This document shows, one piece after another, positions 1 through 18,852 of a stretch of 37,769 nucleotides of DNA (position 1 is the stretch's first letter; every line of letters starts with the position of its first letter). A program made the position numbers and the translations under genes. The notes under the pieces are model-generated. The model did no database searches. It was given only the letters and a program-made list of their open reading frames with translations, and had not been told where the DNA came from. Source of the DNA: a bacterium (GTDB lineage: Bacteria > Patescibacteriota > Minisyncoccia > Minisyncoccales > JAGGXC01); assembly GCA_021163265.1 (NCBI GenBank), contig JAGGXC010000001.1:1-37769 (forward strand), in the 5' to 3' direction.

Positions 1-314
1 GGTATTGCCAGTATTTCATCTCTCTGCAGTCTCTCTACATCCATTGAACGAAAAGCATACAGATTCCTTCTAAACTCAAAATAGAGTAAATCCCAATAAT
101 TTCCCTTCCTTATCCATAAAACAGGATTTGAAGATAAATTTCCTTTCATCTTAGCATACTCTTTTCCAAGTTTATCATGTTTTGTCCTCATAATAACTTT
201 GCATTCAGAACATCTCCATTCAACTGTTCTTGTTGTTTTTGTTTCAGAGACAATCTTACCTATAAAATATGTTTGACGATGACAAATAGGGCAATATATG
301 TTCTTAATCTTCAT
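1..314 (-). CDS. Zinc-ribbon protein, C-terminus runs off the left window edge (not in ORF track)
   Basis: Open minus-strand frame from ATG at 314 to the edge: MKIKNIYCPICHRQTYFIGKIVSETKTTRTVEWRCSECKVIMRTKHDKLGKEYAKMKGN...; CxxC...CxxC pairs; start overlaps the stop of the upstream ORF (304-306). Confidence 0.7.
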   Translation of the reverse strand, partial: MKIKNIYCPICHRQTYFIGKIVSETKTTRTVEWRCSECKVIMRTKHDKLGKEYAKMKGNLSSNPVLWIRKGNYWDLLYFEFRRNLYAFRSMDVERLQRDEILAI

Positions 315-546
315 ATTCTTGTTGATTTTCTATTAAAGTATAAAGTCTATACTTTATCTTCTTCAAAGCATCAATTAAAGAAACAACCTTTCTCTTAGTA
401 TTATTGTTTAAACCAAGTAATGCTAAAGCAGAACCTTTTATCATCTGATACTCTTCAAGCAAGGCTTTATACTCCTTTATCTTCTCATCACATATATCAA
501 CAATAGTATTCAACTCTTCTTCAAATGATTCAACTTCTTTCTCCAT
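304..546 (-). CDS. Small coiled-coil hypothetical protein
   Basis: ORF MEKEVESFEEELNTIVDICDEKIKEYKALLEEYQMIKG...; heptad-like Leu/Glu/Lys pattern; co-directional with neighbours. Confidence 0.5.
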   Translation of the reverse strand: MEKEVESFEEELNTIVDICDEKIKEYKALLEEYQMIKGSALALLGLNNNTKRKVVSLIDALKKIKYRLYTLIENQQEYED

Positions 547-661
547 ATTCAAAAAAAGATTAAAAAATCAAAACTCATAGAAGAAAATAAAGTAGCCAAA
601 GAAGCTTAATCTAGAAAAACTCCTTTGGCTACATATATTTAAAGAACACTCTTTGGAGGTT

Positions 662-889
662 TCACTGCTCATCTTCTATATATCTTGCTCTAAGTTCTCC
701 ATCCACCTTCTCGATAGTCTCCAGAATCTTTTCTACATCAACATTGGAATACTGTATCTCCCAACCATAACCACCTCTCTGACCACGACTCAAACAAACC
801 TTAAGTTCAGATGGCTGCTGCAAAGATACATGCTCATGACGAATAACCTGCTCAACATCTTTACTCATATCTTTCACCTTCTCTGCCAT
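662..889 (-). CDS. Hypothetical protein of mobile-element type
   Basis: ORF MAEKVKDMSKDVEQVIRHEHVSLQQPSELKVCLSRGQRGGYGWEIQYSNVDVEKIL...; overlaps the upstream ORF end, suggesting coupling. Confidence 0.6.
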   Translation of the reverse strand: MAEKVKDMSKDVEQVIRHEHVSLQQPSELKVCLSRGQRGGYGWEIQYSNVDVEKILETIEKVDGELRARYIEDEQ

Positions 890-1275
890 TTCTCATTCAA
901 CACCTCTATCTCCCGCAGCAAAAGATCTTTATTTCCATGTCTTGAAAGATCAATAAGCTCCTCAAGAATATCTGATGCCTCCTCCAAACTCAAATCATCA
1001 GGAATATTTTTCACCCCAAACCTATGCAATGTCTCCCTTTGCTTCCTAGTAGCCAATACACCATCAATCTTACAATTCCTCTCATCTCTATTTACCTGAT
1101 AATCCCTTCTTCTCATCTCAACGATCATCTCACTACGTAAATCCTTAGAAATCTCTTCAAACACTCTACCAGCAATATCTATACCATGCTCCGGCCACTT
1201 CCCAGATACCTTATACAAAATCCTTCCATACATCTCCAAATAAGAATCTATTCTTTCTTCTATCTCTTCATCCAT
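874..1275 (-). CDS. Hypothetical protein with C-terminal 'ATRKQRETLHRFGVKNIPDDLSLEEASDILEELI' motif
   Basis: Internal ATG at 1275 preceded by GGAGG (minus strand) preferred over the ORF-track start at 1338; this helical motif is often seen in element/phage recombination or ssDNA-related proteins. Confidence 0.6.
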   Translation of the reverse strand: MDEEIEERIDSYLEMYGRILYKVSGKWPEHGIDIAGRVFEEISKDLRSEMIVEMRRRDYQVNRDERNCKIDGVLATRKQRETLHRFGVKNIPDDLSLEEASDILEELIDLSRHGNKDLLLREIEVLNEKWQRR

Positions 1276-1375
1276 TCTACACAAACCTCCTCTTCGGTAG
1301 AGACAACCTAAAGGTTGCTCCACCAGCACAGCCCCCAAACTTTTCTTTGGAAGCTAGGCTCATAGAACAACCTTT

Positions 1376-1657
1376 TTACCCATCAAAAACCAGCCTCCAA
1401 CCATTATCATAAACCCAGAGTTGTTTTTTAACACATGAAGGAACCTTTAATCTCTTCAACCTCCTGATCTCTCTCTTGAACCTCCCTTTACCTGTTTTCA
1501 CCTGCACAAGCAAAACCTTCGACCTAGAAACAGCAACAATATCAAAAGGAGAACGAGAACCAGCTGAACGCAAAACCGTATGAAAAACCCTGTTTCTCCT
1601 TAACCTTCTAACTACCTCCAATTCCCTTAGATAACCTTTTTGATAAGAAGTAATCAT
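1376..1657 (-). CDS. PD-(D/E)XK nuclease, archaeal Holliday-junction-resolvase (Hjc)-like
   Basis: GYLRELEVVRRLRR...RSAGSRSPFDIVAVSRSKVLLVQVKTGKG: E...S..PFDIVA...QVK arrangement typical of Hjc-like nucleases; 4-nt overlap with the upstream ORF. Confidence 0.7.
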   Translation of the reverse strand: MITSYQKGYLRELEVVRRLRRNRVFHTVLRSAGSRSPFDIVAVSRSKVLLVQVKTGKGRFKREIRRLKRLKVPSCVKKQLWVYDNGWRLVFDG

Positions 1658-2331
1658 AACCTAAAAGTAGGATACAGTTTATCCAAGTAGAACTCCTGGA
1701 AAACATGCTCTCTCTTCCAGAGATTAATAATATTAGTTGACAAACAAACCGCTAGGGAATCACCAAGCCTCTGAGAATACTCTGAAGAAAGATACCAATC
1801 AATCAACTCCTTGATCTCCTCCACACCGTATTTCTTTAGCCTCTGCTTAACTAGTTTCCCATCCTTCGACCAGTTAACCTCAGGAACATAACCCTTTATC
1901 CTTCTAACCCTTGATATAAAATAAGAAACAATATCCCTAACAGAAGATGACTTTTTGTCATCCACTACAGTGTATATATTACTACTCTCTATTACTATAG
2001 GATCAGACACCCTTGTCTCCTCAAGAGAACCCCTATTTGTCTTCTCAGAAGTGGACAGATCTAAGGAAACCTTCCAGTCTGGTAGAAGATAACGATTATT
2101 TCTCCTAAGACCCACTCTTTTTATCCTCAAACCCGCTTTTTCTTTTAACTCCTTAATTGCTCTATCCACTGTTTTCACTGAAACACCTAAAACCTCAGCT
2201 ATATACTTCCTTGAAGGATAAGAAATAGATTCAGAATCCTTCATAGACCACAAAACCCCAGCAACAAGTTTCGCTCTAAAACCCAGGTCTCTTCTTTTAG
2301 CAATTAATTTAGGAATAGCCCAGAAACCCAT
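1654..2331 (-). CDS. Helix-turn-helix replication-initiator-like protein
   Basis: SYPSRKYIAEVLGVSVKTVDRAIKELKEKAGLRIKRVGLRRNNRYLLPD: wHTH of phage/plasmid replication-protein type; location in early operon. Confidence 0.6.
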   Translation of the reverse strand: MGFWAIPKLIAKRRDLGFRAKLVAGVLWSMKDSESISYPSRKYIAEVLGVSVKTVDRAIKELKEKAGLRIKRVGLRRNNRYLLPDWKVSLDLSTSEKTNRGSLEETRVSDPIVIESSNIYTVVDDKKSSSVRDIVSYFISRVRRIKGYVPEVNWSKDGKLVKQRLKKYGVEEIKELIDWYLSSEYSQRLGDSLAVCLSTNIINLWKREHVFQEFYLDKLYPTFRL

Positions 2332-2336
2332 AAAGA

Positions 2337-2672
2337 CTAATTAGATGTTTGAAATTGATTAATCCTTTGTCTCCTATCAACCCATTCCTTAAGATTCTTG
2401 TTTATACCAAACATTTGTCTATCAGGATTCCACTTAATTACTCCTCTCACCACCAAACCCTTCAGGATATCATCGACATGATAAGGCAAAATCCCTGCTA
2501 AGAAGAAATCTTTTTTATCAAAAACAGCAAAATCCCTGTTTAACCCAAAGGAAAACCTCATAATCAAAAGCAAAACCTTAAGCTCTCTCTTGGTAAAATT
2601 CGAGGTGATAATCTTATCTAATATTCTATTCTCAATATTAGTTGAAACCATAGTTTTTTTAGTAGATTTCAT
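2337..2672 (-). CDS. Winged-helix protein resembling phage replication protein O N-terminal domain
   Basis: SNFTKRELKVLLLIMRFSFGLNRDFAVFDKKDFFLAGILPYHVDDILKGLVVRGVIKWN. Confidence 0.55.
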   Translation of the reverse strand: MKSTKKTMVSTNIENRILDKIITSNFTKRELKVLLLIMRFSFGLNRDFAVFDKKDFFLAGILPYHVDDILKGLVVRGVIKWNPDRQMFGINKNLKEWVDRRQRINQFQTSN

Positions 2673-2823
2673 TAACCTTCCTTTTCAAAACATACTCAAC
2701 CAAAGCAAAAGCAAGAAGTCTAACATTTTTCCGTATCCTATCAATCTCTTCATCAGAAAGAGAAGGTTTCCTAAGAATCTCCCTATATTTATCATAGATT
2801 GAATTCCCTTTCTCCTTAGACAT
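2659..2823 (-). CDS. 54-aa hypothetical protein (below ORF-track cutoff)
   Basis: Frame read from ATG at 2823: MSKEKGNSIYDKYREILRKPSLSDEEIDRIRKNVRLLAFALVEYVLKRKVNEIY*; stop overlaps ATG of the 2337-2672 ORF; hydrophilic/helical, more plausible than the track ORF 2685-2867 in another frame. Confidence 0.6.
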   Translation of the reverse strand: MSKEKGNSIYDKYREILRKPSLSDEEIDRIRKNVRLLAFALVEYVLKRKVNEIY

Positions 2824-2844
2824 AAGACAAAATAGGGTAGTAGT

Positions 2845-3054
2845 CTATAGTAGAAAGACTTCTTCAACTCTTTCTCCCAAAACCTTAGCTATCTTTAAAG
2901 CTAGATAAACGTTTGGTATACGATTACCTGTTTCAATCTCAGATATCTCTGACTGGAAAACACCTACTTTCTCTGCTAAAACAGATTGCTTCATCCTCTT
3001 CTTATCCCTTAGTTCTTTTATTCTATTAGTTAGTCTCCACCATATTTCAATCAT
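2845..3054 (-). CDS. XRE-family (Cro/CI-like) HTH repressor
   Basis: NRIKELRDKKRMKQSVLAEKVGVFQSEISEIETGNRIPNVYLALKIAKVLGERVEEVFLL. Confidence 0.9.
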   Translation of the reverse strand: MIEIWWRLTNRIKELRDKKRMKQSVLAEKVGVFQSEISEIETGNRIPNVYLALKIAKVLGERVEEVFLL

Positions 3055-3059
3055 AAAAA

Positions 3060-3102
3060 TACGATATTACCTTAGATTATATCGTATAAACACGATTGTC
3101 AA
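3060..3102 (-). promoter_or_regulatory. Predicted sigma70-type promoter and operator of the XRE gene
   Basis: Minus strand TTGACA (3097-3102), 15-nt spacer, TATAAT (3076-3081); inverted repeat TACGATAT (3060-3067) / ATATCGTA (3079-3086) overlaps the -10. Confidence 0.65.
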
Positions 3103-3231
3103 GTGGAAAATTAGAGATTTATGATAAATTCTAGTTATAATTTCCAGAGAATATATTCTCTTGGTCTTTTAGAAAAATTTATTTATGAGAATTTTTATGT
3201 CGCCTCTTGAATCCACGAGGGAGAAAGGTAT

Positions 3232-3795
3232 ATGAAGATATCTAATCCAAAGGATATGATAGGTAAGTTGGTTACTGATTTTAACGGTGTAACCATTGGT
3301 GTTGTAGATAAGATTTGGAAGAGCTGGAACGAGGAGTACCCTGGGTGGTTTTTTGGCGTAAGACTAAACGAGGAAGTAAGAAACGCATGGTTTAGAGGTA
3401 CAACAAAACTTATACCAATATATAACGACTATATCCAGGATATTGCTGAACATATTATGCTTAATAAAACAGCTGAGCAACTCAGTCGTTATTTGAATAA
3501 AACAGTTTCTTGCAGCGATGCTGCTCATCCAATTGATCACCTCATGGACATGCCTGTTTATGATAGAAACAATTCCCGTGTTGGAACATTCTATGGTTGG
3601 GTCGAGAGTGACGGAATATACAAACACTATGGTTGCTTCGTAGATCCCTATCTATGTGATATCTGGGATATACCACATAATATCGTTATGCCACTCCAAC
3701 CTTCTATGATTCATCAAGTTTTTGATACGATTACTCTCAATAGAACCCTAAAGGAGCTCAGAGAGTATTGGCAACAATATTCTGAGAAACACTAA
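3232..3795 (+). CDS. Tandem PRC-barrel-like protein
   Basis: Two repeats (MIGKLVTDFNGVTIGVVDKIWKSW... and HLMDMPVYDRNNSRVGTFYGWVES...) resembling PRC-barrel domains. Confidence 0.55.
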   Translation: MKISNPKDMIGKLVTDFNGVTIGVVDKIWKSWNEEYPGWFFGVRLNEEVRNAWFRGTTKLIPIYNDYIQDIAEHIMLNKTAEQLSRYLNKTVSCSDAAHPIDHLMDMPVYDRNNSRVGTFYGWVESDGIYKHYGCFVDPYLCDIWDIPHNIVMPLQPSMIHQVFDTITLNRTLKELREYWQQYSEKH

Positions 3796-3796
3796 G

Positions 3797-3833
3797 GAGG
3801 AGTTTAAGGGAATAGCCGCATTCCCTACTCCTC
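3797..3833 (+). terminator. Strong bulged hairpin after PRC-like ORF, followed by C/T-rich tract
   Basis: GAGGAGT-TTA-AGGGAAT-agccgc-ATTCCCT-ACTCCTC: 14 bp with a 3-nt bulge, then tccctccctccatctccccccta. Confidence 0.5.
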
Positions 3834-4048
3834 TCCCTCCCTCCATCTCCCCCCTATTTTTGAGGGAGTAGATGATTTTGTGCAATAAAAGAATTTATGA
3901 ATCAGATGTTGATAATTTGATTAGAAGAAGAGCTAAAATATTTTAGGTAGTTACCATAAAACAGTGGGATTTATATCAGCAGAAGGTTTAGTAGAAATTA
4001 CACAAGTTATTGCAAAATTTCGATGATTTTATATAGGACCTAATTCTT

Positions 4049-5584
4049 ATGATAAAAGACCAATTGAAAGATAGGGATGGGATGAAGCTGAGATTGAATA
4101 ACGATGAGGATGTTGATTTGAGTTTAATCTTGGATTCGAAGTCTTTCCCTTCTTTTGTTACCTATATCTGTAGAGGTGATGGTAAATGGTCTCCTATCTA
4201 TGTAAGTAAGAATATTCTAGACTTTGGTTTCACTAGAGAGGAATTCTTGGAGAAAACCGATTTCTGGATTAATCATATACATCCAGATGATCAACAAAAG
4301 TTTCTAAATGAGCTATCTGATGTTTTTGAAAAAGGTTTTCATACCAGAGAATATAGAGTTTTAGATAAAAATGGTTGCTATAGATGGGTGAAAGATGAAC
4401 GTAGATTGATTTATGATGAAGATCGTAAAACCGATAGATATATTGGCTTCATATATGATATAACCAGGGAGAAAAAACTGGAGGAATCCCTACTTGAAGT
4501 TGAAAAACGATTTGAGGATATACTGTCGGTTTCTGCGGATTGGTTCTGGGAAGTTGATAAAAATGGAGTATATACTTTTGTAGCTGGTAAAGTCGAAGAA
4601 ATCCTTGGATATAAACCAGAGGAACTCATAGGTAAAACACCTTTTGATCTTATGCCGGAGGATGAAGCAAGACGAATAGAAGAGATATTCAAAAAAATTG
4701 CTGGCGAGAAAAAAAGGATTATGAACTTAGAAAATTGGAATATAACTAAACAAGGTAGAAGAATCTGCTTACTAACAAATGGAGTACCTCTATTGGATAG
4801 AGAAGGGAATCTAATAGGCTATAGAGGTGTAGATAAAGATGTTACTGATATTAAACTAGCGGAGATAGAGAGAAAAAATCAAGTCGAAAGGATCAAAAGA
4901 TATCAATCAGCTATTGTGAAGATATCAACTGATGAATCAATGATTGAAGGAAAATTTGATATCTTCTGTAAACATGTCACTGAAGTAATTGCCCATGCCA
5001 TGGATGTAGAACGAGTTAGTATATGGTTGTTAAATGATAAGCAAACTGAGTTGATATGTATCGACTTATATGAGAGAAGTAAGGATAAACATTCAAAAGA
5101 TATTACGCTTTCTGTAAATAATTATCCTAATTATTTCAATACTCTTCGAAACACTACAGCTATTGATGCAGAAGATGCGCTTAATGATGATAGAACCAAA
5201 GAATTTAAAGAAGATTATTTGATTCCACTAGGTATTGTTTCTATGCTTGATGCAACTATTAGAGTTCATGGCAAAACAAGAGGAGTTGTATGTCATGAAC
5301 ATATAGGAGAAAAAAGAAAGTGGTTACCCGATGAAATTATTTTTGCAGGTGAAGTCTCAGATCAAATTGCAAATGCTTTACTTACTTCTGAACGGATTTA
5401 TACTATAAAAGAGTTAGAGCAGAGAATGAAAGAACTTGAACTCTTTCAATCTTTTACTGAGGAAAGGGAACTTAAAATGATTGAATTAAAAAGAGAGATA
5501 AATGAGCTCTGCAAGAAATATGGAGAAAAACCTAGATATGAGATAACAGATGAGTTAAAGGAGGAGAAGGTGTTAAATCCTTGA
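4049..5584 (+). CDS. PAS-PAS-GAF sensor protein with C-terminal coiled coil, no kinase domain
   Basis: PAS/PAC signatures (FLEKTDFWINHIHPDDQQKF...YRVLDKNGCYRWVKDERRLIYDEDRKTDRYIGFIYDIT; SADWFWEVDKNGVYTFVAGKVEEILGYKPEELIGKTPFDLM), then GAF-like region (ATIRVHGKTRGVVCHEHIGEKRKWLPDEIIFAGEVSDQIANAL). Confidence 0.85.
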   Translation: MIKDQLKDRDGMKLRLNNDEDVDLSLILDSKSFPSFVTYICRGDGKWSPIYVSKNILDFGFTREEFLEKTDFWINHIHPDDQQKFLNELSDVFEKGFHTREYRVLDKNGCYRWVKDERRLIYDEDRKTDRYIGFIYDITREKKLEESLLEVEKRFEDILSVSADWFWEVDKNGVYTFVAGKVEEILGYKPEELIGKTPFDLMPEDEARRIEEIFKKIAGEKKRIMNLENWNITKQGRRICLLTNGVPLLDREGNLIGYRGVDKDVTDIKLAEIERKNQVERIKRYQSAIVKISTDESMIEGKFDIFCKHVTEVIAHAMDVERVSIWLLNDKQTELICIDLYERSKDKHSKDITLSVNNYPNYFNTLRNTTAIDAEDALNDDRTKEFKEDYLIPLGIVSMLDATIRVHGKTRGVVCHEHIGEKRKWLPDEIIFAGEVSDQIANALLTSERIYTIKELEQRMKELELFQSFTEERELKMIELKREINELCKKYGEKPRYEITDELKEEKVLNP

Positions 5585-5600
5585 TTTGGGGAGGGAAAAA

Positions 5601-6947
5601 ATGTTTATGGGAAAGTTAAAGATTGTTGTGCTGTTGGTTGTTATCGCAGCTGGTATATTATCTGGATGTACAACTCGAGAGGAATTGAATATACAGGAGG
5701 GGGATAATGGTGTACAACAAATGGGTCCGGTGTTTGTTGGATATGGCTGGAGTATAAAATCTGATCCTGTAGAAGCGGTAGCTGAGGCTGTTTCATCAGT
5801 AAAAACTCAGCTTAAGGATAAAACTCCTGATTATATCGTTCTTTTTTCAACTGTTGATTATAATTCAACGGTTATCCTTAGAGAGGTTTCTAAATATTTT
5901 CCAGAAGCACAGATATATGGTGGTACTTCATGTACCGGTGTGTTAACTAAAGATGGGTATCATACTAGTGGAAATGGTTCTCTAGCTTTATTAGCTGTTT
6001 CTTCTGAGAATATTAGTTTTGGTGTTGGTGGAGCAGAGATAGGAGATTCTGCTAGAACAGCCGGAGCAGAAGCTATCTCAGAGGCTATTGTAAATGCTGA
6101 GAGAAACAATGAAACACCTGATCTTGTTTTGATAACCGCTGCTCCTGGGAAAGAAGAAGAAATACTACTTGGAATAGAAGATGTAATTGGTAAAGACACA
6201 CCAATATTTGGTGGGAGTTCAGCGGATAATACCATAGAGGGATATTGGAAGCAATTTGCAAATAATAAAGTATACTCCAATGGTGTTAGTGTAACCGCTA
6301 TTTTCACTAATTTAAAAATTGGTTACTCATTTGAAGCAGGGTATCTAATAAGTGAACAAGAGGGAACTATCACCGAGGCAGAAGGTAGAACCATCTATAA
6401 AATCGATGATAAACCTGCTGCAGAGGTTTATAATGACTGGACTTCCGGGGAGGTTATTGGTGAAAATCATTCATCTACTGGAGAATTAATCATTCTCTCT
6501 CAATCTACTTTTTATCCATTATCTAAGAAACTAGTTGGTTCAAATGGAGAGATCCACTATCTTTCTATACATCCACTCTCGGTTAATTTCTCTGATAAAT
6601 CCCTTACAGTTTTCACTAACGTAGAAAGCGGAGAAACTATACAACTAATGCATGGAACCTGGGAGTTATTACTTAACCGAGGACACAGTACACCATCGAA
6701 AGCATTAGAATTCGGTGAAATCGATAAAGGTAAGGGTGCATTTGGTATCTATACTTTTTGCGCTGGAACACTCCTAGGTATACCTGAAAATGAGAGGTTT
6801 AAACTTCCTTTATTGGTTTATCAAACTATTGGTATACCTTTCATTGGAACTTTTACTTTTGGTGAGCAAGGTTATATCAGCGGCGTTGGAAATAGACATG
6901 GGAATCTTGTTAATTCTATGGTAATAATCGGTGAAGAAGAAAAATGA
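5601..6947 (+). CDS. FIST-domain (N and C) lipoprotein
   Basis: ATG 5601 with upstream GGGAGGG; signal peptide and lipobox IVVLLVVIAAGILSGC; FIST-like PEAQIYGGTSCTGVLTKDG...GKDTPIFGGSSADN...GIPFIGTFTFGEQGYIS. Confidence 0.8.
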   Translation: MFMGKLKIVVLLVVIAAGILSGCTTREELNIQEGDNGVQQMGPVFVGYGWSIKSDPVEAVAEAVSSVKTQLKDKTPDYIVLFSTVDYNSTVILREVSKYFPEAQIYGGTSCTGVLTKDGYHTSGNGSLALLAVSSENISFGVGGAEIGDSARTAGAEAISEAIVNAERNNETPDLVLITAAPGKEEEILLGIEDVIGKDTPIFGGSSADNTIEGYWKQFANNKVYSNGVSVTAIFTNLKIGYSFEAGYLISEQEGTITEAEGRTIYKIDDKPAAEVYNDWTSGEVIGENHSSTGELIILSQSTFYPLSKKLVGSNGEIHYLSIHPLSVNFSDKSLTVFTNVESGETIQLMHGTWELLLNRGHSTPSKALEFGEIDKGKGAFGIYTFCAGTLLGIPENERFKLPLLVYQTIGIPFIGTFTFGEQGYISGVGNRHGNLVNSMVIIGEEEK

Positions 6948-7089
6948 ACCACCTTTCTCATCTCCTCCAACGGGATTACGGGTTTAATATCGTAATGTTA
7001 AACCTCCTTAATTCTCTTATGTCTTTAAACCAAGAGGATTTCCATGAAACAAAGGCTGCTGAGATAACTTTAAGTTTGGTGAATAAGAG

Positions 7090-8817
7090 ATGAAATTGAA
7101 AAGCATGTTTCATAAAGTATTCCTCTACATGGTTCTTATATCCCTCATCGGCGGAGGAACCACCTTAGGTATATTAATTACCGGGCAAACTCTCACCATG
7201 GAAGAAAATATTATCCGAGAACATCTAGTAATCGCTGATATAGTCTCACAAACCATTGAAACAGGTTATTTCGCTGGTAGATGGCCTTTTGAAACACTTG
7301 AAGAAATAAAGAAAGGGGAAGACATTGTATTTTGGTGGGTGACAAAACCCGATGGTGAGATTGTATTAGCCGATAATCCCGATATGTGGGGAAAACAAGT
7401 GACTAATAATTTCTTATATTCAAATGAAACCATTGTTAGAGATACTGTATTCAGTGAAACTGGAGAGAATATCAAATTAATCGTTCGCCCCCTTAATATC
7501 AAAGAAGAAGGAAAAAACTGGATGTTTTGTATGGGAGTATCTCTTAAACCAATTTCTATGGCAAGAAATTCATTAATTCAAAATGGTATAGCCGTTCTTA
7601 TAGGAGTAGTCTTCTTAACAGTTGTATTCTCTCTCATCCTCAGTAGAAGTATCATCAAACCAATTCAACAGTTATCTAAAGCAACAATAACCATAGCAAA
7701 AGGAAACCTCGATCAACATGTAGAAGTAGAAAGTAACGGTGAAATCGGTTTACTAGCAAATAACTTCAACAAGATGATTCAAGAGTTAAAAAAATCCAAA
7801 ACTAAATTAGAAGAATACAACAAACTCCTTGAGAAAAAAGTAGAAGAACGTACAAAGGAACTTAGAATAGCTAAAGAAAAATTAGAAGAACATGTTGAAA
7901 AACTTGAGAGAAACAAAAAGATGCTACTCAACCTCATGCAGGATCTTAAAAATACAGTAGATAAACTAAAAACTACACAAGAAGAATTAAAACATAGAAA
8001 TAAAGAATTAGAAATAGCTCATAATAAACTAAAAGAGATGAACAGAGAACTTGATAGAAAAGTTAAAGAAAGAACTAGGGAGGTAGAAAAACTATTGGAA
8101 CAAAAAAACGAGTTTATCCATCAACTAGGTCATGACCTCAAAACCCCTTTGACACCTATGTTAACTCTTCTACCTATTATTCGTAGCCGTGTCGATGACC
8201 CTAAGACTCAAGAGTTGTTGGATATATTGGTTGAGAGTTCTTCTCATATGAAGGAGTTGGTTACTAAGACTCTGCAGCTTGCTCGTCTTAATTCCCCGAA
8301 TATGCAATTCCAGATTGAGGAGGTGAATCTGCGGGAGGAGATAAATAGTGCTTTGAAGAGGAATAAAACTATTCTCCAAGATTGTAATATGGAGGTTGAG
8401 AATCTTGTTAGAGAAGATATTTTAGTAATGGCAGATAAACTTCGTCTCGGTGAGTTATTGGATAATCTAATTAGTAATGCAGTAAAGTATACTCCTAATG
8501 GTGGTAGAATAACTATCACTGCGGATTACGAGGAAGATGAAGTTAAAATCGCTATTCAAGATACAGGTATAGGTATGACTAGAGAACAAATAGAACATAT
8601 CTTCGATGAATTCTATAAAGCAGATGAATCTAGACATGATCTGGATTCTAGTGGACTTGGATTAGCAATCTGCAAACGTATAGTAGAGAAACACGGTGGT
8701 AGAATATGGGCTGAAAGCCCTGGTAGAGGTAAAGGTTCAACTTTCTATTTTACTTTACCTTGTAGTAGTAATTTGGAAGGTAGAACCTGTGAGCCAGTTG
8801 CTTTTGCCAAGAAATGA
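7090..8817 (+). CDS. Sensor histidine kinase (TM, Cache-like extracytoplasmic domain, HAMP, coiled coil, HisKA, HATPase_c)
   Basis: QLGHDLKTPLTPML H-box; LGELLDNLISNAVKYTPNGG N-box; DTGIGM, SSGLGLAICKRIVEKHGGRIWAES G-boxes; two TM segments flank a ~130-aa domain. Confidence 0.95.
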   Translation: MKLKSMFHKVFLYMVLISLIGGGTTLGILITGQTLTMEENIIREHLVIADIVSQTIETGYFAGRWPFETLEEIKKGEDIVFWWVTKPDGEIVLADNPDMWGKQVTNNFLYSNETIVRDTVFSETGENIKLIVRPLNIKEEGKNWMFCMGVSLKPISMARNSLIQNGIAVLIGVVFLTVVFSLILSRSIIKPIQQLSKATITIAKGNLDQHVEVESNGEIGLLANNFNKMIQELKKSKTKLEEYNKLLEKKVEERTKELRIAKEKLEEHVEKLERNKKMLLNLMQDLKNTVDKLKTTQEELKHRNKELEIAHNKLKEMNRELDRKVKERTREVEKLLEQKNEFIHQLGHDLKTPLTPMLTLLPIIRSRVDDPKTQELLDILVESSSHMKELVTKTLQLARLNSPNMQFQIEEVNLREEINSALKRNKTILQDCNMEVENLVREDILVMADKLRLGELLDNLISNAVKYTPNGGRITITADYEEDEVKIAIQDTGIGMTREQIEHIFDEFYKADESRHDLDSSGLGLAICKRIVEKHGGRIWAESPGRGKGSTFYFTLPCSSNLEGRTCEPVAFAKK

Positions 8818-8858
8818 AATAGCTTTTGCTATTCCACTATATAATTGAGGGGATAGTG

Positions 8859-9254
8859 ATGGTAAAAATCATGGTTGTAGATGATAGCCGAGAGGTGTTG
8901 TTTTCTGTTGCAAGTAGCCTTAGGAAGCTAGATGAAAGTTATGAGGTTATAACAGCTGAGAATGGAAAGAAATGTTTAGAACTCCTGGAAGAAGAGACAC
9001 CAGATGCCATACTATTAGATATAATGATGCCCGGTATGAGCGGATGGGTAGTCTATGATAAAATACGTAGTAATCCAAAATGGGAGAGGATACCTATACT
9101 ATTCTTAACCGCTCGTACCGATAAACTTGCAGAGGAGGCTGGAAAATTCTTAGGTGAAGATTACATCGAGAAACCATTTGATCCAATTGACCTAAAAAAG
9201 AGAATTGAAAAAGCTATAGAAAAAAAGAGGAAAACAGGGGTGAGACAATATTAA
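8859..9254 (+). CDS. Single-domain response regulator (REC)
   Basis: MVKIMVVDDSREVL...PDAILLDIMMPGMSGW...PILFLTARTD...EDYIEKPFD; ATG 8859 with upstream GAGGGGATAG preferred over 8826. Confidence 0.93.
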   Translation: MVKIMVVDDSREVLFSVASSLRKLDESYEVITAENGKKCLELLEEETPDAILLDIMMPGMSGWVVYDKIRSNPKWERIPILFLTARTDKLAEEAGKFLGEDYIEKPFDPIDLKKRIEKAIEKKRKTGVRQY

Positions 9255-9642
9255 AAAGATTTTAATTGTTGATGACGAACCAATAATTATCGCTTCGATT
9301 AAGATAGCTTTAGAGGAAATAGGAGAAGATTATGAGATAATAGGTGCTAATAGTGGAGAGGAATGTTTCAAGCTGCTAGAGAAAGGAGAGAAACCAGATC
9401 TTATTTTATTGGACATCATGATGCCCGGTATGGATGGTTGGAAGGTACATGATAAACTTAAAGCTAAAGAATCACCTTATAATGATATACCCATTATTTT
9501 CTTAACAGCAGCGAATAACGAGGATTATCGAGAAGTAGGTACTTGGTTTGGAGAAGATTATATAGAGAAACCATTTGATATAATGGACCTCAAAAAGAGT
9601 ATAGATAGAGTGCTTGAGAGAAAGAATGAGAAGAAAAAATAG
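9250..9642 (+). CDS. Single-domain response regulator (REC), apparently ATT-initiated
   Basis: Complete REC domain only if read from ATT at 9250: IKKILIVDDEPIIIASIKIALEEIGEDYEIIGANSGEECFKLLEKGEKPDLILLDIMMPGMDGWKV...; in-frame TGA at 9241; SD-like AGGGGTGA at 9235-9242; ORF track truncates it to 9409. Confidence 0.85.
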   Translation: MKKILIVDDEPIIIASIKIALEEIGEDYEIIGANSGEECFKLLEKGEKPDLILLDIMMPGMDGWKVHDKLKAKESPYNDIPIIFLTAANNEDYREVGTWFGEDYIEKPFDIMDLKKSIDRVLERKNEKKK

Positions 9643-9800
9643 AAAATAAAATAGTTTAATAAAAGGGGATTTTCCTCAAACCATTTAAACTCTTTGGATT
9701 TCGATATATTAAATTTTAAAGGAAAGATATTATAAAGTTGGGAATTGATTAAGCTTAAATACTATTTATCCGAGATGAAAAAGGATTTCTAAGTTTAAGG

Positions 9801-11018
9801 ATGTGTGATTATCAGATGATAAAAGAAAAACATCCATTAAGAGGGGCTAAAGGTGGATGTACAGGTTTTATGGCTTCTAAGAATGATAAGGTTTTAGTTG
9901 CCAGCAATATCGATGCTTCTGTTGTTGACCCTAAACTTGAGGTTTATAAACCAGATGAATCAAAAGGAACCTATGGAAGAATACTTTTTCGATACTGGTA
10001 TGATTGCGTAGATTGTAGGTCAACAGGTGTAAATGAAAAAGGATTATGGTTTGATCGATATGATCATCAATTTTGGCCTCAGCTAAAAACTATTTTTAAG
10101 AAACCATATAAAAAACCAATGCAGTTAGAAGCATACTGCCTGAGCATATGTTCCACAGTTGAAGAAGTAAAAGAGGAGATGGAGAAATATAATCTTTTTC
10201 AGATGTCAAGGTATAATGCTTTCTTTGTTGATAAAACAGGGGATTGGGTGATCATAGAAGGTGATAACCTCTATCAAAAAGATGAATATAACAAGTATGG
10301 AATCAAGTATGCAGTAAGTACAAATTTTATACCATCTAAACCCAATCTTCCTTTTTCTAGATTAACCGGATGGGAACAAGGTAAATGGCGATATAGACTA
10401 GCAAGATATATGCTTCAAAATATGGATGAATCTCAATTCAATAGAGAATATTTTAGAAGCATATGTGAGGCAACCCATACTGATGTCACCAATTATTCCA
10501 ATGTTTGCGATCTCAAAAATGGAATAATCTATCTTTATCATTTCAAAGACTATGAAAAAGAAAGAGAAATAAAAATAAGAGAATATATCAAGAAAATCCC
10601 AGAGATTCAAGACCCAGAAAGCCCAATGATAATTAAGATACCATCACTATTTGAACCCAAAAATAATAAACCACCTGAGAAACCGGTTTTATATGGACCC
10701 ACTAAAGGAAAAATTGGACAGAGTTATGAATATTTCGCAGTTTCCAAAGATCCAGAGAAACATCAGATCTATTTTCTTTTTGATTGGGGTGATGGAACAA
10801 CAAGTAAAATCTGTAAAAAATGGATTGAACCTCTAAACAATATCACCTGTCAATTAAAACATAGATGGATAAAAAGCGGTGACTATAAAGTAAAAGTAAA
10901 AACACGAGATATCTATGGAAAAGAAAGCCCATGGTCAGATCCACTATATGTTGATATTCAAAAGAAGAAACATCCTCGTATCCTACCTCCAGAGTTAATA
11001 AAAAAAGGATTAAGATAA
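9801..11018 (+). CDS. Ntn-hydrolase (C45 / choloylglycine-hydrolase-like) fused to PKD-like domain
   Basis: GGCTGFMASKNDKVLVASNIDA (candidate nucleophile Cys); WVIIEGDNLYQ; C-terminal KPVLYGPTKGKIGQSYEYFAVSKDPEKHQIYFLFDWGDGTTS...KSGDYKVKVKTRDIYGKESPWSDPL. Confidence 0.7.
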   Translation: MCDYQMIKEKHPLRGAKGGCTGFMASKNDKVLVASNIDASVVDPKLEVYKPDESKGTYGRILFRYWYDCVDCRSTGVNEKGLWFDRYDHQFWPQLKTIFKKPYKKPMQLEAYCLSICSTVEEVKEEMEKYNLFQMSRYNAFFVDKTGDWVIIEGDNLYQKDEYNKYGIKYAVSTNFIPSKPNLPFSRLTGWEQGKWRYRLARYMLQNMDESQFNREYFRSICEATHTDVTNYSNVCDLKNGIIYLYHFKDYEKEREIKIREYIKKIPEIQDPESPMIIKIPSLFEPKNNKPPEKPVLYGPTKGKIGQSYEYFAVSKDPEKHQIYFLFDWGDGTTSKICKKWIEPLNNITCQLKHRWIKSGDYKVKVKTRDIYGKESPWSDPLYVDIQKKKHPRILPPELIKKGLR

Positions 11019-11026
11019 AAATAGGG

Positions 11027-12394
11027 TTATTTCTTCTTAGACCTATGATTGTATAGATAATCATAGATTAAAAACACAGTTAATCCTGTGACCCCTGCTG
11101 TTATCAGAATCTGGATATATATCAGAAACTCCTTAAAACCCTCAAGTATAGTTTTATTTATCTTGAGAAGTATATCCGGTAGCATACTAGATATATTTGT
11201 TGAGAAATTGATGGAGATATTTTCATAACCTACATTACCTGGTATGTAGATGGAAACAACACTTTTTTCTTTATTGGCGATATGGCGATAGATACAATCA
11301 TCTAATAATGTATTGTCTATTTTTAGGGTCATATTAAATCTTTTTTCTTTCCACCAATCTCCGAATAGTCTATGTTTTTCCTCATAAGGCTCGAGAAATA
11401 TTTTGATGATGCTTAAATTATCAAGATCTATTTGTAGTTCCTGTGGGAAATATTTTTTATAGAAAAAATTAAGCCTCGTGCTTTTATTTAAACTGAGATT
11501 ACAATTAAAAACAGTGATATCGCTACTAACCTCGCTGTTATATAACTTGTCAAGTAGATAGATTGCCCAAATAATACACCTATGATCAAAGAAAGGATTT
11601 TCAATACGGGATTCTAAGAATATTTCTCTAGCATGTTTTATTACGTTAAGAGTTATCTTAGTGTTAAATATGTTTTTCTCCAAAAATCTTTCATTCAAAT
11701 CTGCTGACTCAAGAGCATCATTTAGTCTATCTATGATATCTAATGATATATCTTCTCTCCATATACCTGGATATAATATCTTTATAGTTGTATTTAAAAT
11801 CTCAAATGTAAATGAGATGTTAACTAAAATCTCTCCTTCTTTGTTCTTCAATTGATCACGCCAGATGAAAGGTATTTCACAGTTATATAATCGAAAATAT
11901 ATACGTGGAGTAATCGAAGTACCAGGTTTTAACTCAAATACTCTCTCTACTTTTCTTTCAGGTTCACCAGATATGGATTCTGAAAAAACCTTATCTTTTT
12001 CTTCCCATGGAGGAATAAAAGAGACATCACCTATTCGTCGTTTACCATCTGATTTACTTTTGTAATAAATTTCTCCATCTACAAATCTATCCGTAGGGAT
12101 GATTAATCTTGTTGTGTTGTTTAGAAAACCAATGAACTGTTTCCTTGGATAGCTAATATTAATTTTTGCACTAATAACCGTATATGCCTCATCAGAGTTT
12201 TCATAATCTACATTCCAGTCAGAGATTTCACCAATAACAGGTTCAGGTAGTATCTGCCTGAGATTTTCTACTAAAATAAATGAAATCAAAAGAACTATAA
12301 TTAAAATTATTACCGCCGTTCTCCCCCTTATCTTCACAAAAGATAAATTGATACTATTTATATAAATTTGTTGTATTATATTCTGTGTATTCAA
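11027..12394 (-). CDS. Two-TM membrane protein with large extracytoplasmic domain, unknown function
   Basis: N-terminal TM RTAVIILIIVLLISFILV and C-terminal TM IYIQILITAGVTGLTVFLIYDYLY flank ~380 polar residues. Confidence 0.6.
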   Translation of the reverse strand: MNTQNIIQQIYINSINLSFVKIRGRTAVIILIIVLLISFILVENLRQILPEPVIGEISDWNVDYENSDEAYTVISAKINISYPRKQFIGFLNNTTRLIIPTDRFVDGEIYYKSKSDGKRRIGDVSFIPPWEEKDKVFSESISGEPERKVERVFELKPGTSITPRIYFRLYNCEIPFIWRDQLKNKEGEILVNISFTFEILNTTIKILYPGIWREDISLDIIDRLNDALESADLNERFLEKNIFNTKITLNVIKHAREIFLESRIENPFFDHRCIIWAIYLLDKLYNSEVSSDITVFNCNLSLNKSTRLNFFYKKYFPQELQIDLDNLSIIKIFLEPYEEKHRLFGDWWKEKRFNMTLKIDNTLLDDCIYRHIANKEKSVVSIYIPGNVGYENISINFSTNISSMLPDILLKINKTILEGFKEFLIYIQILITAGVTGLTVFLIYDYLYNHRSKKK

Positions 12395-12467
12395 ATTTGA
12401 ATTACTCCAAGGTCGAATGAATCTAAGGGGGATAAAAAGTAATGAGGAATAATTCTTATAGATTGGG

Positions 12468-12496
12468 TTGACAAAGATTTCTATCTTAGTTAATAT
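12468..12496 (+). promoter_or_regulatory. Predicted sigma70-type promoter for the XRE/ImmA-like pair
   Basis: TTGACA (12468-12473), 17-nt spacer, TAATAT (12491-12496); ATG at 12511 implies a very short leader. Confidence 0.6.
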
Positions 12497-12510
12497 CAGT
12501 TATAGATGAT

Positions 12511-12858
12511 ATGAAATTTGGAGAGAAACTAAGAAAAATTAGAGAAGAGAAAGGCATTACACAGCAAGAGTTAGCTGAAAAACTTGGATATGTAACCAAT
12601 AGCTATATTGCCGAGGTAGAGAAAGGAAAGTTTATCCCCTCAGAGAAGAAACTAAGGATGATAGCCAAAGCCCTAGGTGTTCCCTTTAGAGAACTTGATA
12701 GCCTTTTATTAGAAACAAAGATCGAAGAACTTGGAGTAAAGGAAACTGAGCTCATTAGCTTATTCAAGGATATCCCAAAACTACCCAAGGAGGATAAACA
12801 AGCTATCATCAAAGCCTATCTCTCCATCAAAAAAAGAAAGAAAAAACAGAAAACATGA
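12511..12858 (+). CDS. XRE-family HTH regulator (ImmR-like)
   Basis: MKFGEKLRKIREEKGITQQELAEKLGYVTNSYIAEVEKGKFIPSEKKLRMIAKALGVPF; overlaps next ORF. Confidence 0.9.
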   Translation: MKFGEKLRKIREEKGITQQELAEKLGYVTNSYIAEVEKGKFIPSEKKLRMIAKALGVPFRELDSLLLETKIEELGVKETELISLFKDIPKLPKEDKQAIIKAYLSIKKRKKKQKT

Positions 12859-13334
12859 GATGGATAATTGAAAAAGCCAATGAAATACGCAAAAAATATG
12901 GTTTAGATGACCTATATTTTGTTGCTGAGAAACTAGGAGCAAGAGTTGTCGAGCATCCCCTGGGTAGAATAATCAAGGAAGCCTATTTCAAAGACCTAAG
13001 AGTTATTGTCATTGACCCAAGTCTGCATCCATATAAAAAACGTCACCTCATCGCTCATGGTCTGGCTCATCATCTGTTCCACAGAAACAGGAAGGTAAAT
13101 TATTTTCTTGACCAAGGTAGGTGTTTCCTTAAAAACCTAGATGTTATACAACAAGAAAGAGAAGCAGAGGTTTTCGCAGCATACCTTCTCATACCAGAGG
13201 ACAAACTAAATATTCTTCTAAAAGAGGAATGGATAAAAGAATCCCTAGATCCAATACCTGAGCTGGCTGAAGAATTCCAAGTATCAGAACATTTCATGAA
13301 AAAGAGACTAGGATTTGAAAAAATGTTGAGATAA
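12855..13334 (+). CDS. ImmA/IrrE-like protein with altered active-site motif
   Basis: RVIVIDPSLHPYKKRHLIAHGLAHHLFHRN...REAEVFAAYLLIPEDKL: ImmA/IrrE arrangement with HGLAH in place of HExxH. Confidence 0.8.
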   Translation: MRWIIEKANEIRKKYGLDDLYFVAEKLGARVVEHPLGRIIKEAYFKDLRVIVIDPSLHPYKKRHLIAHGLAHHLFHRNRKVNYFLDQGRCFLKNLDVIQQEREAEVFAAYLLIPEDKLNILLKEEWIKESLDPIPELAEEFQVSEHFMKKRLGFEKMLR

Positions 13335-13387
13335 AGGATTTAAACCATGAATTCATAATTATCATACCTTTATTGGAGAGAAGATAC

Positions 13388-13993
13388 ATGAACAAAAACC
13401 TTAGGGAGTTTGTAGATAAGGAACACAGAGTGATGAGTGATTTTTATGACATATGTGAGAGATACAATGAGAGAAACAAGGCTTTAATAAAAAGAGAGCT
13501 GAGACAGTTGATTGAAGAGGATCCTGATTTTTTGGATCCCTATCTTTTTCTTTATCAGATACTGGAAGATGAAGGTAATCTCAAGGAGGCAGAAAAGATT
13601 TTAAACGAAGCATATAGGAGAGCAATAGCTTTGATAACAGACAAAGATGGAAGTTGGCCTGATATTTTGAAATGGGGTTGGCTGGAAAACAGGCATATTA
13701 TTAGAACTATTCTAAACAAAGCCTTGTCTCTCTGGAGAAATAATAAGATAGAAGAATCATTAGACTTATTTAGAAAACTTCTAAAAACAAACCCCAATGA
13801 TAATATTGGAGCAAGATTCTATATCCTGGCAATCAGGATGGGTATGAGCTTAGATGATTTTGAGGATCGTTTCAACAAAGGTGGCTACTATGATTCAGAG
13901 ATGATTGATTGGTTTGATAGAAACTACAAAGATTTCCTAGATGAGTTTAGCTGGTGGGAGAAAGCCATCGAGGAGGAAGAGTATATCTCATAA
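13388..13993 (+). CDS. TPR-like hypothetical protein
   Basis: LEDEGNLKEAEKILNEAYRRAI...LWRNNKIEESLDLFRKLLKTNPNDNIGARFY; ATG 13388 or 13373. Confidence 0.6.
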   Translation: MNKNLREFVDKEHRVMSDFYDICERYNERNKALIKRELRQLIEEDPDFLDPYLFLYQILEDEGNLKEAEKILNEAYRRAIALITDKDGSWPDILKWGWLENRHIIRTILNKALSLWRNNKIEESLDLFRKLLKTNPNDNIGARFYILAIRMGMSLDDFEDRFNKGGYYDSEMIDWFDRNYKDFLDEFSWWEKAIEEEEYIS

Positions 13994-14082
13994 GAGACAC
14001 CTCCTTGTTTTTTCTCCAACCAAGTTATATAATACCAAGATCACCAGCTAAAATCACTGACCAAATAATTTTTTAGAATTCC

Positions 14083-15603
14083 ATGAAAAACGCACTAGCT
14101 TATGCTAGAGTATCAACCAAAGAGCAGGCAGAGAAAGGACTCTCTATTCCTGCTCAACTAAAAGCAATAAGAGAGTATGCAAAATCTCATGATTTTTGTA
14201 TTCTTCAAGAATACACCGATCTTGGAGAATCAGCCAAAACCGCTAATAGACCCGGATTCAAAAAGATGATCAAAAGGTGTCAGAAAGATAAAACAATTGA
14301 TGCTGTTATCGTTCACAAAATAGACCGATTTTCTAGAAACAACATTGATTTCTTTGCCTACAAAGCTATCTTAAAAAAAGAAGGTATCAGACTCATATCG
14401 GCTTCAGAAAACATCGAAGAAACACCTTCTGGTGAGTTCATAGAAAATGTTTTAGTAGCAATGGCACAGTTTTACTCCTCCAACCTTGCTGAGGAAGTAC
14501 TTAAAGGTATGAAAGAAAAGTTTAGAAAAGGAGAATGGCCATATAAAGCACCTATTGGATATAAAAATATAAGAGATGAGAAGGGACATGCCTATATAGT
14601 TGAGGACAAAAAGACCTCCTATCTGATAAGGCAGATGTTTAAACTCTACGCCACCGGGCAATATTCCTTTGCTTCCTTGTCCGAAGAGATGGCAGAAAGA
14701 GGACTAAAAACAAAGTATGGTAAACACCTTTCACCTGAGAGAATAAAAAGCACCCTTACCAACCCCTTCTACATAGGTATACTAAGACTCTGGAACGAGA
14801 AAAGAAAAGGGAAACATAAACCATTAGTTGATGAAACACTTTTTAGACAAGTTCAAAATGTGATGAAAGAAAGAAAAATTACCCAAGATAGATGGCAAAA
14901 AAGAGATTTCCTTCTTAGAGGATTGCTTTACTGCCAAAATTGCAAAAGAAGATTAACCGCAGAGGTACATGAGAGAGGAAGCTACTACAGATGTCCATAC
15001 AATGTCAACAACCCAATATGTAAAGAACCATATATCCCCACAAAACACCTTGAATCTCAAATTGAAAAACTATATAATCTAATGGAACCCACACCAAGGC
15101 TTCTTAAAATCCTTAAAGCAGAGATTGAGGAGGTTCAAAACAATTTCAAGGCGAAATCTTCAAACGAGATACAGAATCTCAAAAGAAGAATCAGGGAAAA
15201 TGAAGCAAAGATGGACACCCTTGTTGATAACCTTGCTACCAAGACAATTACCCCAGAGATTTACAAGAAATACAGCCAAAGATATGAAAAAGAAATCAAA
15301 GAAGCAAGAGATAGACTAGCAGTATTAGAGAAAGATTATAGCAGAAACTTTGATTTCATCGATAAATGCATGATACTAGCATCAACCCTATCTAAGCTAC
15401 ACAAAATATTCAGCTTCCAGCAGAAAAAGAAACTTGCTAAAGCTCTCTTTAGAAGAATCTGGGTGAAAAACAAAGAAATCAAAAGGATAGAGCTTAACCC
15501 ACCATTTGATTTCCTACTTAGAAATCAGACCAGAAAAATTCATAAAGTTTTTCCGAATCTTGTATTCGAACATTATCCCATTAAGTCCACCCAGCCGCGG
15601 TAG
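14083..15603 (+). CDS. Large serine recombinase/integrase (Resolvase + Recombinase + zinc-ribbon + coiled coil)
   Basis: ALAYARVSTKEQAEKGLSIPAQLKAIREYA...DAVIVHKIDRFSRN...PIGYKN...LLRGLLYCQNCKRRLTAEVHERGSYYRCPYN. Confidence 0.95.
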   Translation: MKNALAYARVSTKEQAEKGLSIPAQLKAIREYAKSHDFCILQEYTDLGESAKTANRPGFKKMIKRCQKDKTIDAVIVHKIDRFSRNNIDFFAYKAILKKEGIRLISASENIEETPSGEFIENVLVAMAQFYSSNLAEEVLKGMKEKFRKGEWPYKAPIGYKNIRDEKGHAYIVEDKKTSYLIRQMFKLYATGQYSFASLSEEMAERGLKTKYGKHLSPERIKSTLTNPFYIGILRLWNEKRKGKHKPLVDETLFRQVQNVMKERKITQDRWQKRDFLLRGLLYCQNCKRRLTAEVHERGSYYRCPYNVNNPICKEPYIPTKHLESQIEKLYNLMEPTPRLLKILKAEIEEVQNNFKAKSSNEIQNLKRRIRENEAKMDTLVDNLATKTITPEIYKKYSQRYEKEIKEARDRLAVLEKDYSRNFDFIDKCMILASTLSKLHKIFSFQQKKKLAKALFRRIWVKNKEIKRIELNPPFDFLLRNQTRKIHKVFPNLVFEHYPIKSTQPR

Positions 15604-15666
15604 CTCAGGCAGTAGAGCGCAGCTCTGAAAAAGCTGAGGTCACCAGTGCAAGTCTGGTCCGCGGCA
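15594..15666 (+). tRNA. tRNA-Phe(GAA)
   Basis: GCCGCGG-TA-GCTC-AGGCAGTA-GAGC-G-CAGCT-CTGAAAA-AGCTG-AGGTC-ACCAG-TGCAAGT-CTGGT-CCGCGGC-A; full cloverleaf with unusual D/T loops. Confidence 0.85.
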
Positions 15667-15673
15667 CAAATAA

Positions 15674-15748
15674 GCGGGAGTAGTTCAGTGGTAGAACGTC
15701 TCGTTGCCAACGAGAAGATCGCGGGTTCGAATCCCGTCTCCCGCTCCA
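15674..15748 (+). tRNA. tRNA-Gly(GCC)
   Basis: GCGGGAG...TCTCG-TTGCCAA-CGAGA...GCGGG-TTCGAAT-CCCGT-CTCCCGC-T-CCA. Confidence 0.95.
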
Positions 15749-15768
15749 CAAAAATTTTTGAGAAAATC

Positions 15769-15802
15769 GCTCAAAAAATCTATTTATTTGAGCATTTTTT
15801 TT
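15769..15802 (+). terminator. Intrinsic terminator after tRNA-Phe/Gly
   Basis: GCTCAAA...TTTGAGC followed by ATTTTTTTT; an alternative hairpin TTTTTGAG(15755)/CTCAAAAA(15770) shares its 5' arm. Confidence 0.55.
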
Positions 15803-15818
15803 ATCTCCTAAAAAGATC

Positions 15819-15847
15819 TTGACAAGCATATTAGGATAGGTTAATTT
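15819..15847 (+). promoter_or_regulatory. Predicted sigma70-type promoter of the 3D-domain gene
   Basis: TTGACA (15819-15824), 17-nt spacer, TAATTT (15842-15847); ATG at 15854 lies about where the TSS is expected. Confidence 0.5.
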
Positions 15848-15853
15848 AGTGGA

Positions 15854-16354: not shown

Positions 16355-16375
16355 ATTTTTACCATTCACCTACAC

Positions 16376-16406
16376 ACAAAAAATCCGCAGTCTGCGGATT
16401 TTTTGT
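16376..16406. terminator. Bidirectional intrinsic terminator
   Basis: ACAAAAAATCCGCA-GTC-TGCGGATTTTTTGT, perfect 14-bp stem. Confidence 0.85.
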
Positions 16407-16416
16407 GATTTTTGTG

Positions 16417-16502
16417 TGCCGGGGGTGGGACTCGAACCCACACGGGGATAAATCCCCAGCAGATTTTAAGTCTGCGCTGTCTACCAATTCCAGCACCCCG
16501 GC
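16417..16502 (-). tRNA. tRNA-Leu(TAA)
   Basis: Reverse complement GCCGGGGTGCTGGAATTGGTAGACAGCGCAGACTTAAAATCTGC...GTGGGTTCGAGTCCCACCCCCGGCA. Confidence 0.93.
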
Positions 16503-16515
16503 TTTTTATTTTTTG

Positions 16516-16587
16516 AGGCCAGGGTGGGAATCGAACCCACGCATAAGGGTTTTGCAGACCCTTGCCTTACCTCTTGGCTACCTGGCC
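16516..16587 (-). tRNA. tRNA-Cys(GCA)
   Basis: Reverse complement GGCCAGGTAGCCAAGAGGTAAGGCAAGGGTCTGCAAAACCCTTATGCGTGGGTTCGATTCCCACCCTGGCCT. Confidence 0.93.
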
Positions 16588-18840: not shown

Positions 18841-18852
18841 AAGCGGAGATAG

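Follow-up and report, generated by a model that had tools for sequence, protein, structure and literature searches.

A candidate surface-anchored FIST sensor and Cache-HAMP kinase of archaeal kinship carried on an integrative element in a CPR-type bacterial chromosome

The closest described systems are pairs in which a stand-alone FIST protein is encoded beside the kinase that it regulates. NosP is a FIST protein that controls the autophosphorylation of an adjacent kinase without transmembrane (TM) regions (PMC12570481), and VpsV is proposed to control VpsS (PMC4398556). The arrangement of the NosP-NosK/NahK and VpsV-VpsS pairs is shared by a 37,769-nt stretch of DNA, hereafter the window (JAGGXC010000001.1 of assembly GCA_021163265.1, contig C14 of host genome G000), from a bacterium whose assembly is 674 kb and 94% complete; we class it as Candidate Phyla Radiation (CPR) type from its genome size and gene content. 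Here a cassette of five sensory genes spans positions 4049-9642. Neither NosK nor VpsS contains TM regions, whereas the FIST protein of the window is predicted to be exported and anchored, next to a kinase with a predicted single-Cache (sCache) ectodomain. Because NosP and NosK already pair a FIST protein with a kinase, what is new is the outside location of the FIST protein and the ectodomain of its kinase; searches of openly licensed PMC papers returned no report of an exported FIST protein. The original prediction of a new signalling module stands to that extent, while the adjacency of FIST and kinase was known and regulators made of a receiver (REC) domain alone are ordinary in archaea. 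The best overall explanation, with a probability of roughly 0.6, is that a CPR-type chromosome harbours an integrative element of archaeal origin whose cargo is an archaeal two-component system for envelope sensing, with the FIST protein acting on the kinase.

Coding sequences were called from the open reading frame (ORF) list together with a Pfam scan, and the motif residues of the kinase and receivers were checked separately. All five genes are on the forward strand and are real by their ORFs, Pfam matches, conserved residues and structural models, as had been proposed. The first (4049-5584; Pfam PAS_3, PAS_9 and GAF) encodes a PAS-PAS-GAF sensor without a kinase domain and is followed by the FIST lipoprotein gene (5586-6947) and the histidine kinase gene (7090-8817). 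REC-only response regulator 1 lies at 8826-9254, with a probable ATG start at 8859, and response regulator 2 at 9250-9642. The frame of the latter has no ATG, GTG or TTG start and is open from stop to stop from 9244; its NCBIfam receiver matches and conserved residues identify it, and it probably begins with the ATT at 9250, overlapping the stop of the first receiver gene. The phosphorylation sites are intact in both receivers. The kinase retains intact H, N, G1, F and G2 boxes, with the HisKA histidine at 8131-8133.

The FIST protein is assigned to its family by sequence and by model, with matches to FIST_N (7.3e-29, 101.4 bits; Pfam cut-off 23.2) and FIST_C (9.4e-13, 48.9 bits; cut-off 28.5) and an AlphaFold model of mean pLDDT (predicted local distance difference test) 90.2. 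The best Foldseek matches to this model in the PDB are structures of FBXO22, a FIST protein, and a PDB sequence search returned no FIST relative. Translation probably starts at ATG 5601, because a 97.8%-identical homologue begins there. The leader has a hydrophobic segment at residues 11-29 followed by the lipobox LSGC, whose cysteine is encoded at 5667-5669, and by this criterion the protein is predicted to be an extracytoplasmic lipoprotein. A lipobox (LSGC, LCGC or MAGC) is present in 6/6 readable N-termini of archaeal homologues besides that of the window, in support of the extracytoplasmic anchoring that had been proposed; two LCGC lipoboxes missed by the pattern search were read by eye. 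One alternative is that the protein is a NosP-type nitric oxide sensor moved to the outside, as NosP is the characterised partner of a kinase among FIST proteins and the NCBIfam NosP model (NF041558) matches at 3e-15. The score is only 56.2 bits against an equivalog cut-off of 450, so we did not file the protein as NosP and regard this alternative as very unlikely.

The kinase has two TM segments around an ectodomain, followed by HAMP, a coiled coil, HisKA and HATPase, with Pfam recognising HAMP, HisKA and HATPase. Pfam gave no Cache match to the ectodomain at E 0.01. Its AlphaFold model (pLDDT 84) supports a Cache fold, with Foldseek matches in the PDB that include the sensor domains of WalK, KinD, CitA, DctB and LuxQ. 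Two TM helices flanking a single modelled Cache domain, the HAMP, HisKA and HATPase domains and the intact boxes together give the composition of an sCache-HAMP histidine kinase, and the extracellular domain of the original prediction is thus borne out. LuxP-LuxQ offers a parallel, in which a periplasmic binding protein works through the ectodomain of a membrane kinase; there, too, an extracytoplasmic sensor stands beside a kinase with a Cache-like ectodomain. LuxP has the fold of sugar-binding proteins and not that of FIST. The remainder of the cassette resembles archaeal two-component systems, in which REC-only proteins make up about 40% of response regulators and PAS and GAF domains serve as sensors (PMC5847659). 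Intracellular sensing by PAS and GAF domains is described as predominant in archaea (PMC6944256), whereas the kinase of the window is predicted to sense the outside.

The pairing of the FIST gene with this type of receptor is recurrent. There are 17 readable loci, comprising the window, an archaeal contig (L016), six other archaeal loci and nine CPR loci; L056 was left out since its contig ends inside the FIST gene, and archaeal L026 was counted with a cut FIST N-terminus. In 17/17 of these a two-TM receptor with an ectodomain and HAMP lies directly downstream of FIST, a recurrence well beyond chance; the spacing, computed for 16 loci, ranges from −14 to 174 bp. The archaeal receptors are full kinases (truncated at contig ends in L016 and L018), and those of the CPR lack the kinase in 9/9 loci and end after the coiled coil; soluble kinases and RECs are found nearby in some CPR loci (L055, L081, L084). 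The recurrent neighbourhood that had been anticipated therefore exists for the FIST gene and the Cache-HAMP receptor, and the five-gene set is not the recurrent unit. Ten CPR FIST proteins have an N-terminal TM helix (nine by hydropathy, L056 by eye) with no lipobox at its end; L006 has VAAC further on. Export thus appears to be kept with differing anchors, a lipobox in archaea and a TM helix in CPR. The receptor ectodomain is more similar to that of the window than is the HAMP domain in 9/12 comparisons. Three CPR loci (L084-L086) were left out of the 12; their ectodomains are diverged, so that similarity to the window kinase starts only towards the end of the ectodomain or beyond it. Among control loci, 0/8 cytosolic FIST proteins have a TM segment.

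Signalling from FIST to the kinase is supported because the pairing holds in 17/17 loci with two kinds of anchor, because the ectodomain is kept more than HAMP and is kept in CPR without a kinase, and because of the folds and the NosP precedent. In the proposed route the FIST protein would leave the cytosol and stay anchored to the outside of the membrane, where its ligand-bound form would contact the sCache ectodomain of the kinase encoded by the adjoining gene. The signal would pass from the ectodomain through TM2 and HAMP to the kinase domain, which would phosphorylate both stand-alone RECs, and these would act by protein-protein contact. The PAS-PAS-GAF protein may add input from the cytosol to this relay, with its C-terminal coil as one possible link. 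It ends in the conserved coil motif RELKMIELK, common to 31 distinct proteins in the fetched loci and always 9-30 residues from the C-terminus; our guess is that this tail docks on a separate kinase. Proteins with the tail are kinase-less sensors near FIST genes in archaeal and CPR genomes, the kinase-less CPR receptors included. The host itself has two further, cytosolic-looking FIST genes (C16 = L002; C21 = L003), each followed by a gene for a RELKMIELK-tailed protein.

Several observations weigh against this route. The contrast with cytosolic FIST loci is not absolute, because hydrophobic segments also occur in 4/8 of the proteins encoded downstream of a cytosolic FIST. The lipoprotein diacylglyceryl transferase Lgt (PF01790) was not found in host genome G000 and matches in 9/14 control genomes, which closes the bacterial route of lipidation to the lipobox, and in this host the leader would at best serve as an uncleaved anchor, like those of its CPR cousins. 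Archaea likewise lack Lgt homologues, and another enzyme is thought to serve (PMC2945643). Finally, the spacing of 142 bp between the FIST and kinase genes in the window leaves room for separate transcription of genes that likely form one operon. The same gap favours an explanation in which the two proteins are functionally separate, the Cache domain binding its own ligand and the FIST lipoprotein doing another surface job, such as ligand scavenging or carrying heme or a metabolite. Cache domains commonly bind ligands directly, and the Foldseek matches of the ectodomain include ligand-bound CitA and DctB. Pairing in 17/17 loci across two domains of life, with two anchor types and through loss of the kinase, argues the other way and leaves separate functions unlikely, if still a serious contender to a FIST protein acting on the kinase.

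The cassette lies on an element inserted at the 3' end of a bacterial tRNA-Ala, between tRNA-Ala and tRNA-Phe. In a sister genome of the same genus (G001) these two tRNA genes are 3 bp apart and form the empty site. In the host, tRNA-Ala is on contig C7 (L107 2498-2574) with foreign DNA immediately after it, and tRNA-Phe, the first chromosomal gene right of the element (15594-15667, forward strand; ARAGORN, and syntenic with G001), is preceded in the window by a serine recombinase gene. Both junctions share the core GTCCACC, as attL at C7 2567-2573 (L107) and as attR at window 15585-15591 (forward strand; read from the junction and the empty site in L096 of G001), and the rejoined flanks align with G001 at 88% over 232 nt, gap-free at the junction. 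The two attachment sites, their common core and a related empty site identify an integrative element, in agreement with the claim that the cassette rides on mobile DNA within a reduced genome. The empty site is seen in one of two near relatives, the other (G002) being rearranged there and uninformative. At the G001 locus a TFIIB-like gene (archaeal TFB; L096:3375-4325; TFIIB 7.8e-47, zinc ribbon 4.5e-19) lies beside a tRNA-Gly and is absent there in the window.

The assemblies are fragmented and metagenome-derived or resemble metagenome-assembled genomes (MAGs), and we considered whether the window contig is a chimera in which archaeal DNA was misjoined to a CPR contig. A 97%-identical contig exists in an archaeal MAG, both genomes are MAG-like and the middle of the element is missing between two contigs. 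The junctions on these two contigs are reciprocal, fall at one site and share a 7-bp core, so two independent misjoins would be needed; the rejoined flanks rebuild the empty site of the sister genome and a recombinase gene stands at the junction. A chimera is thus exceedingly improbable, and we rejected it on the strength of both junctions.

The original prediction placed the cassette in a reduced bacterial genome, and by its sequence kinship it is archaeal instead of native there. Window positions 3107-7943 are 96.9% identical in nucleotides over 4.87 kb to QMTB01000122.1 (L016) of the Guaymas Thermoplasmata archaeon B44_G15 (MAG G060), and positions 2498-2604 are 98% identical to the start of the same archaeal contig. 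Between the RepO gene and the gene at 3232 the archaeal copy is about 500 bp shorter (L016:1-107 against window 2498-3104). In the same MAG there are diverged paralogues of the cargo, at 61% for the 3232 gene, 58% for the first receiver, 50% for the kinase and 55% for a TPR protein. FIST matches were found in 13/292 Thermoplasmatota genomes, five of them strong (E 3e-78 or better), and in 35/247 genomes of the host's order, with 11 strong (E 4e-51 or better), the host included; named relatives come from two Thermoplasmata MAGs, a Thermoplasmatota MAG, a Heimdallarchaeota bin and an ANME-1 genome. When 22 FIST proteins were placed in a tree, the window copy fell within an archaeal clade with lipoboxes (100/100), apart from the CPR copies; the deeper order is unsettled because of two long branches and 7/19 open forks. 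Transfer would have run from archaeon to bacterium, where the cassette may be expressed.

A second line of kinship comes from a tyrosine integrase gene on contig C7 (L107 5866-6897; Phage_integrase 2.4e-14), which is uncut and includes 44 bp identical to the 3' half of the tRNA-Gly(GCC) gene in G060. This attP thus matches the very MAG with the 97%-identical contig. A 41-bp core of the pattern is exact in 2/292 Thermoplasmatota genomes and has at most one mismatch in 20 more, with 0 hits for a reversed-pattern control. An attP within the integrase gene that matches the 3' half of a tRNA gene is, judged by its layout, the suicidal arrangement of SSV-type integrases and of the plasmids and viruses that carry them. 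In a Thermoplasmata genome (G241) a 67% homologous integrase is split: int(N) lies at tRNA-Gly, and int(C) at another copy of att at a distance of 6 kb; G259 has a more distant case. Suicidal integrases are called exclusively archaeal in a review (PMC8371274), and searches of openly licensed PMC papers returned no report of a CPR chromosome with an archaeal element that has such an integrase. The element differs from SSV-type elements in that its integrase gene, found in the uncut form only, lies in a bacterial chromosome and is accompanied by a serine recombinase at the junction.

The uncut state of the tyrosine integrase gene implies that a different enzyme inserted the element into the bacterium, and the likeliest is the serine recombinase whose gene crosses attR. 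The element would thus have entered the 3' end of tRNA-Ala by its own serine recombinase while retaining a suicidal-type integrase aimed at Thermoplasmata tRNA-Gly. The recombinase gene (14083-15603, forward strand; Pfam Resolvase, Recombinase and Zn_ribbon; PHROG integrase 1.8e-101) has its last codons across attR and reaching into the tRNA-Phe gene. The nearest relatives of the recombinase are a fragment with 84% identity in a CPR genome (G048) and a 79% fragment of 47 residues in a Thermoplasmata genome (G288). The latter fragment is on an archaeal contig (L138:2139-2268), where a gap of N follows and no tRNA was found.

Other results limit the archaeal attribution. The archaeal MAG shares only a piece of about 5 kb with the element: G060 has no near-identical match to window 9300-12500, only a 70% TPR stretch and tRNA-like pieces against 12000-20500, only the 44-bp att against the C7 part and no serine recombinase that we could find. 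Codon usage of the element genes is intermediate between the host and the archaeon, and w874, RepO, XseA and TPR lean towards CPR; given these values it was dropped as proof of archaeal origin. Archaeal TATA boxes, which looked suggestive on inspection and were scanned as proof of archaeal expression, occur at 4/21 element, 12/48 CPR and 9/24 archaeal genes and were likewise rejected. These data leave room for a CPR (bacterial) element with archaeal cargo that never lives in archaea, L016 being a misbinned bacterial copy. A related module of recombinase, helix-turn-helix (HTH) and M78 genes in CPR genome G048 and the bacterial-type RepO and XseA genes fit such an origin. It fails to account for an uncut integrase whose attP exactly matches the tRNA-Gly of the same archaeal MAG, for an archaeal histone gene on the element and for native cargo paralogues in that archaeon, and we hold it to be distinctly unlikely. 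Within the reading of an archaeal element, a more tentative extension, possible but short of our preferred expectation, is a two-key shuttle that carries a surface FIST system as cargo and travels between an archaeon and a CPR bacterium that may be its parasite, using the suicidal integrase at Thermoplasmata tRNA-Gly and the serine recombinase at the tRNA-Ala of CPR.

The element measures 21.9 kb or more, and the contig ends facing its missing middle do not overlap. On the reverse strand of the window are genes for an Hjc-like nuclease (1376-1657), a helix-turn-helix protein resembling replication initiators (1654-2331) and a phage RepO-like protein (2337-2672), all from Pfam and PHROGs, which by these matches form the replication and repair set of the element. 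The other window genes are on the forward strand. A 187-residue conserved protein (3232-3795) is 95.7% identical in L016; a homologue with 61% identity is encoded next to REC and kinase genes in archaeal L099. Just downstream of the sensor cassette is a cargo gene for an amidase of the C45/choloylglycine-hydrolase type with a PKD-like end (9801-11018; Pfam CBAH, NCBIfam NF040521 below cut-off); the protein has Cys2 and could make or destroy a small signal. Further on are an HTH regulator (12511-12858; Pfam) and an M78 metallopeptidase (12855-13334; Pfam), a pair with a 74% nucleotide-identical counterpart beside the related serine recombinase in G048, and an archaeal-type TPR protein (13373-13993), 55% identical in Thermoplasmata G060:C184. 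On the C7 side the element has genes for a beta-propeller lipoprotein, an archaeal histone (L107:4101-4310; CBFD_NFYB_HMF 2.6e-16) that now resides in a bacterial chromosome, an XseA-like protein, the tyrosine integrase and a VirD4/TraG-like ATPase. This last, a candidate conjugation gene, is truncated at the contig end, and the middle of the element is missing.

Searches of mobile-element collections gave few relatives. IMG/VR has none for the FIST, PAS and HTH proteins, the tyrosine integrase, the serine recombinase or the tRNA-Gly pattern, and one 39% match (L110) for the TraG-like ATPase. Plasmid and phage collections contain no near match to window 1-15600, and no phage match was found for the tyrosine integrase. 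A plasmid tblastn search with the FIST protein returned 81 records, all below 60% identity, and one with the kinase only generic kinase matches.

With this cassette FIST sensing would move from the cytosol, where NosP-type proteins act, to the outside of the cell. The kinase-bearing receptors of archaea and the kinase-less receptors of CPR provide natural constructs for testing how sensor and receptor communicate. The element is also a concrete case, testable by PCR, in which mobile DNA would have passed between the Archaea and a bacterium with a reduced genome and has one integration site for either domain. Contact between archaeon and CPR bacterium is plausible, since a CPR bacterium, Minisyncoccus, parasitises an archaeon in co-culture (PMC12281837), and such contact may have occurred here. 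With a co-culture available, DNA exchange between CPR bacteria and their archaeal partners is directly testable.

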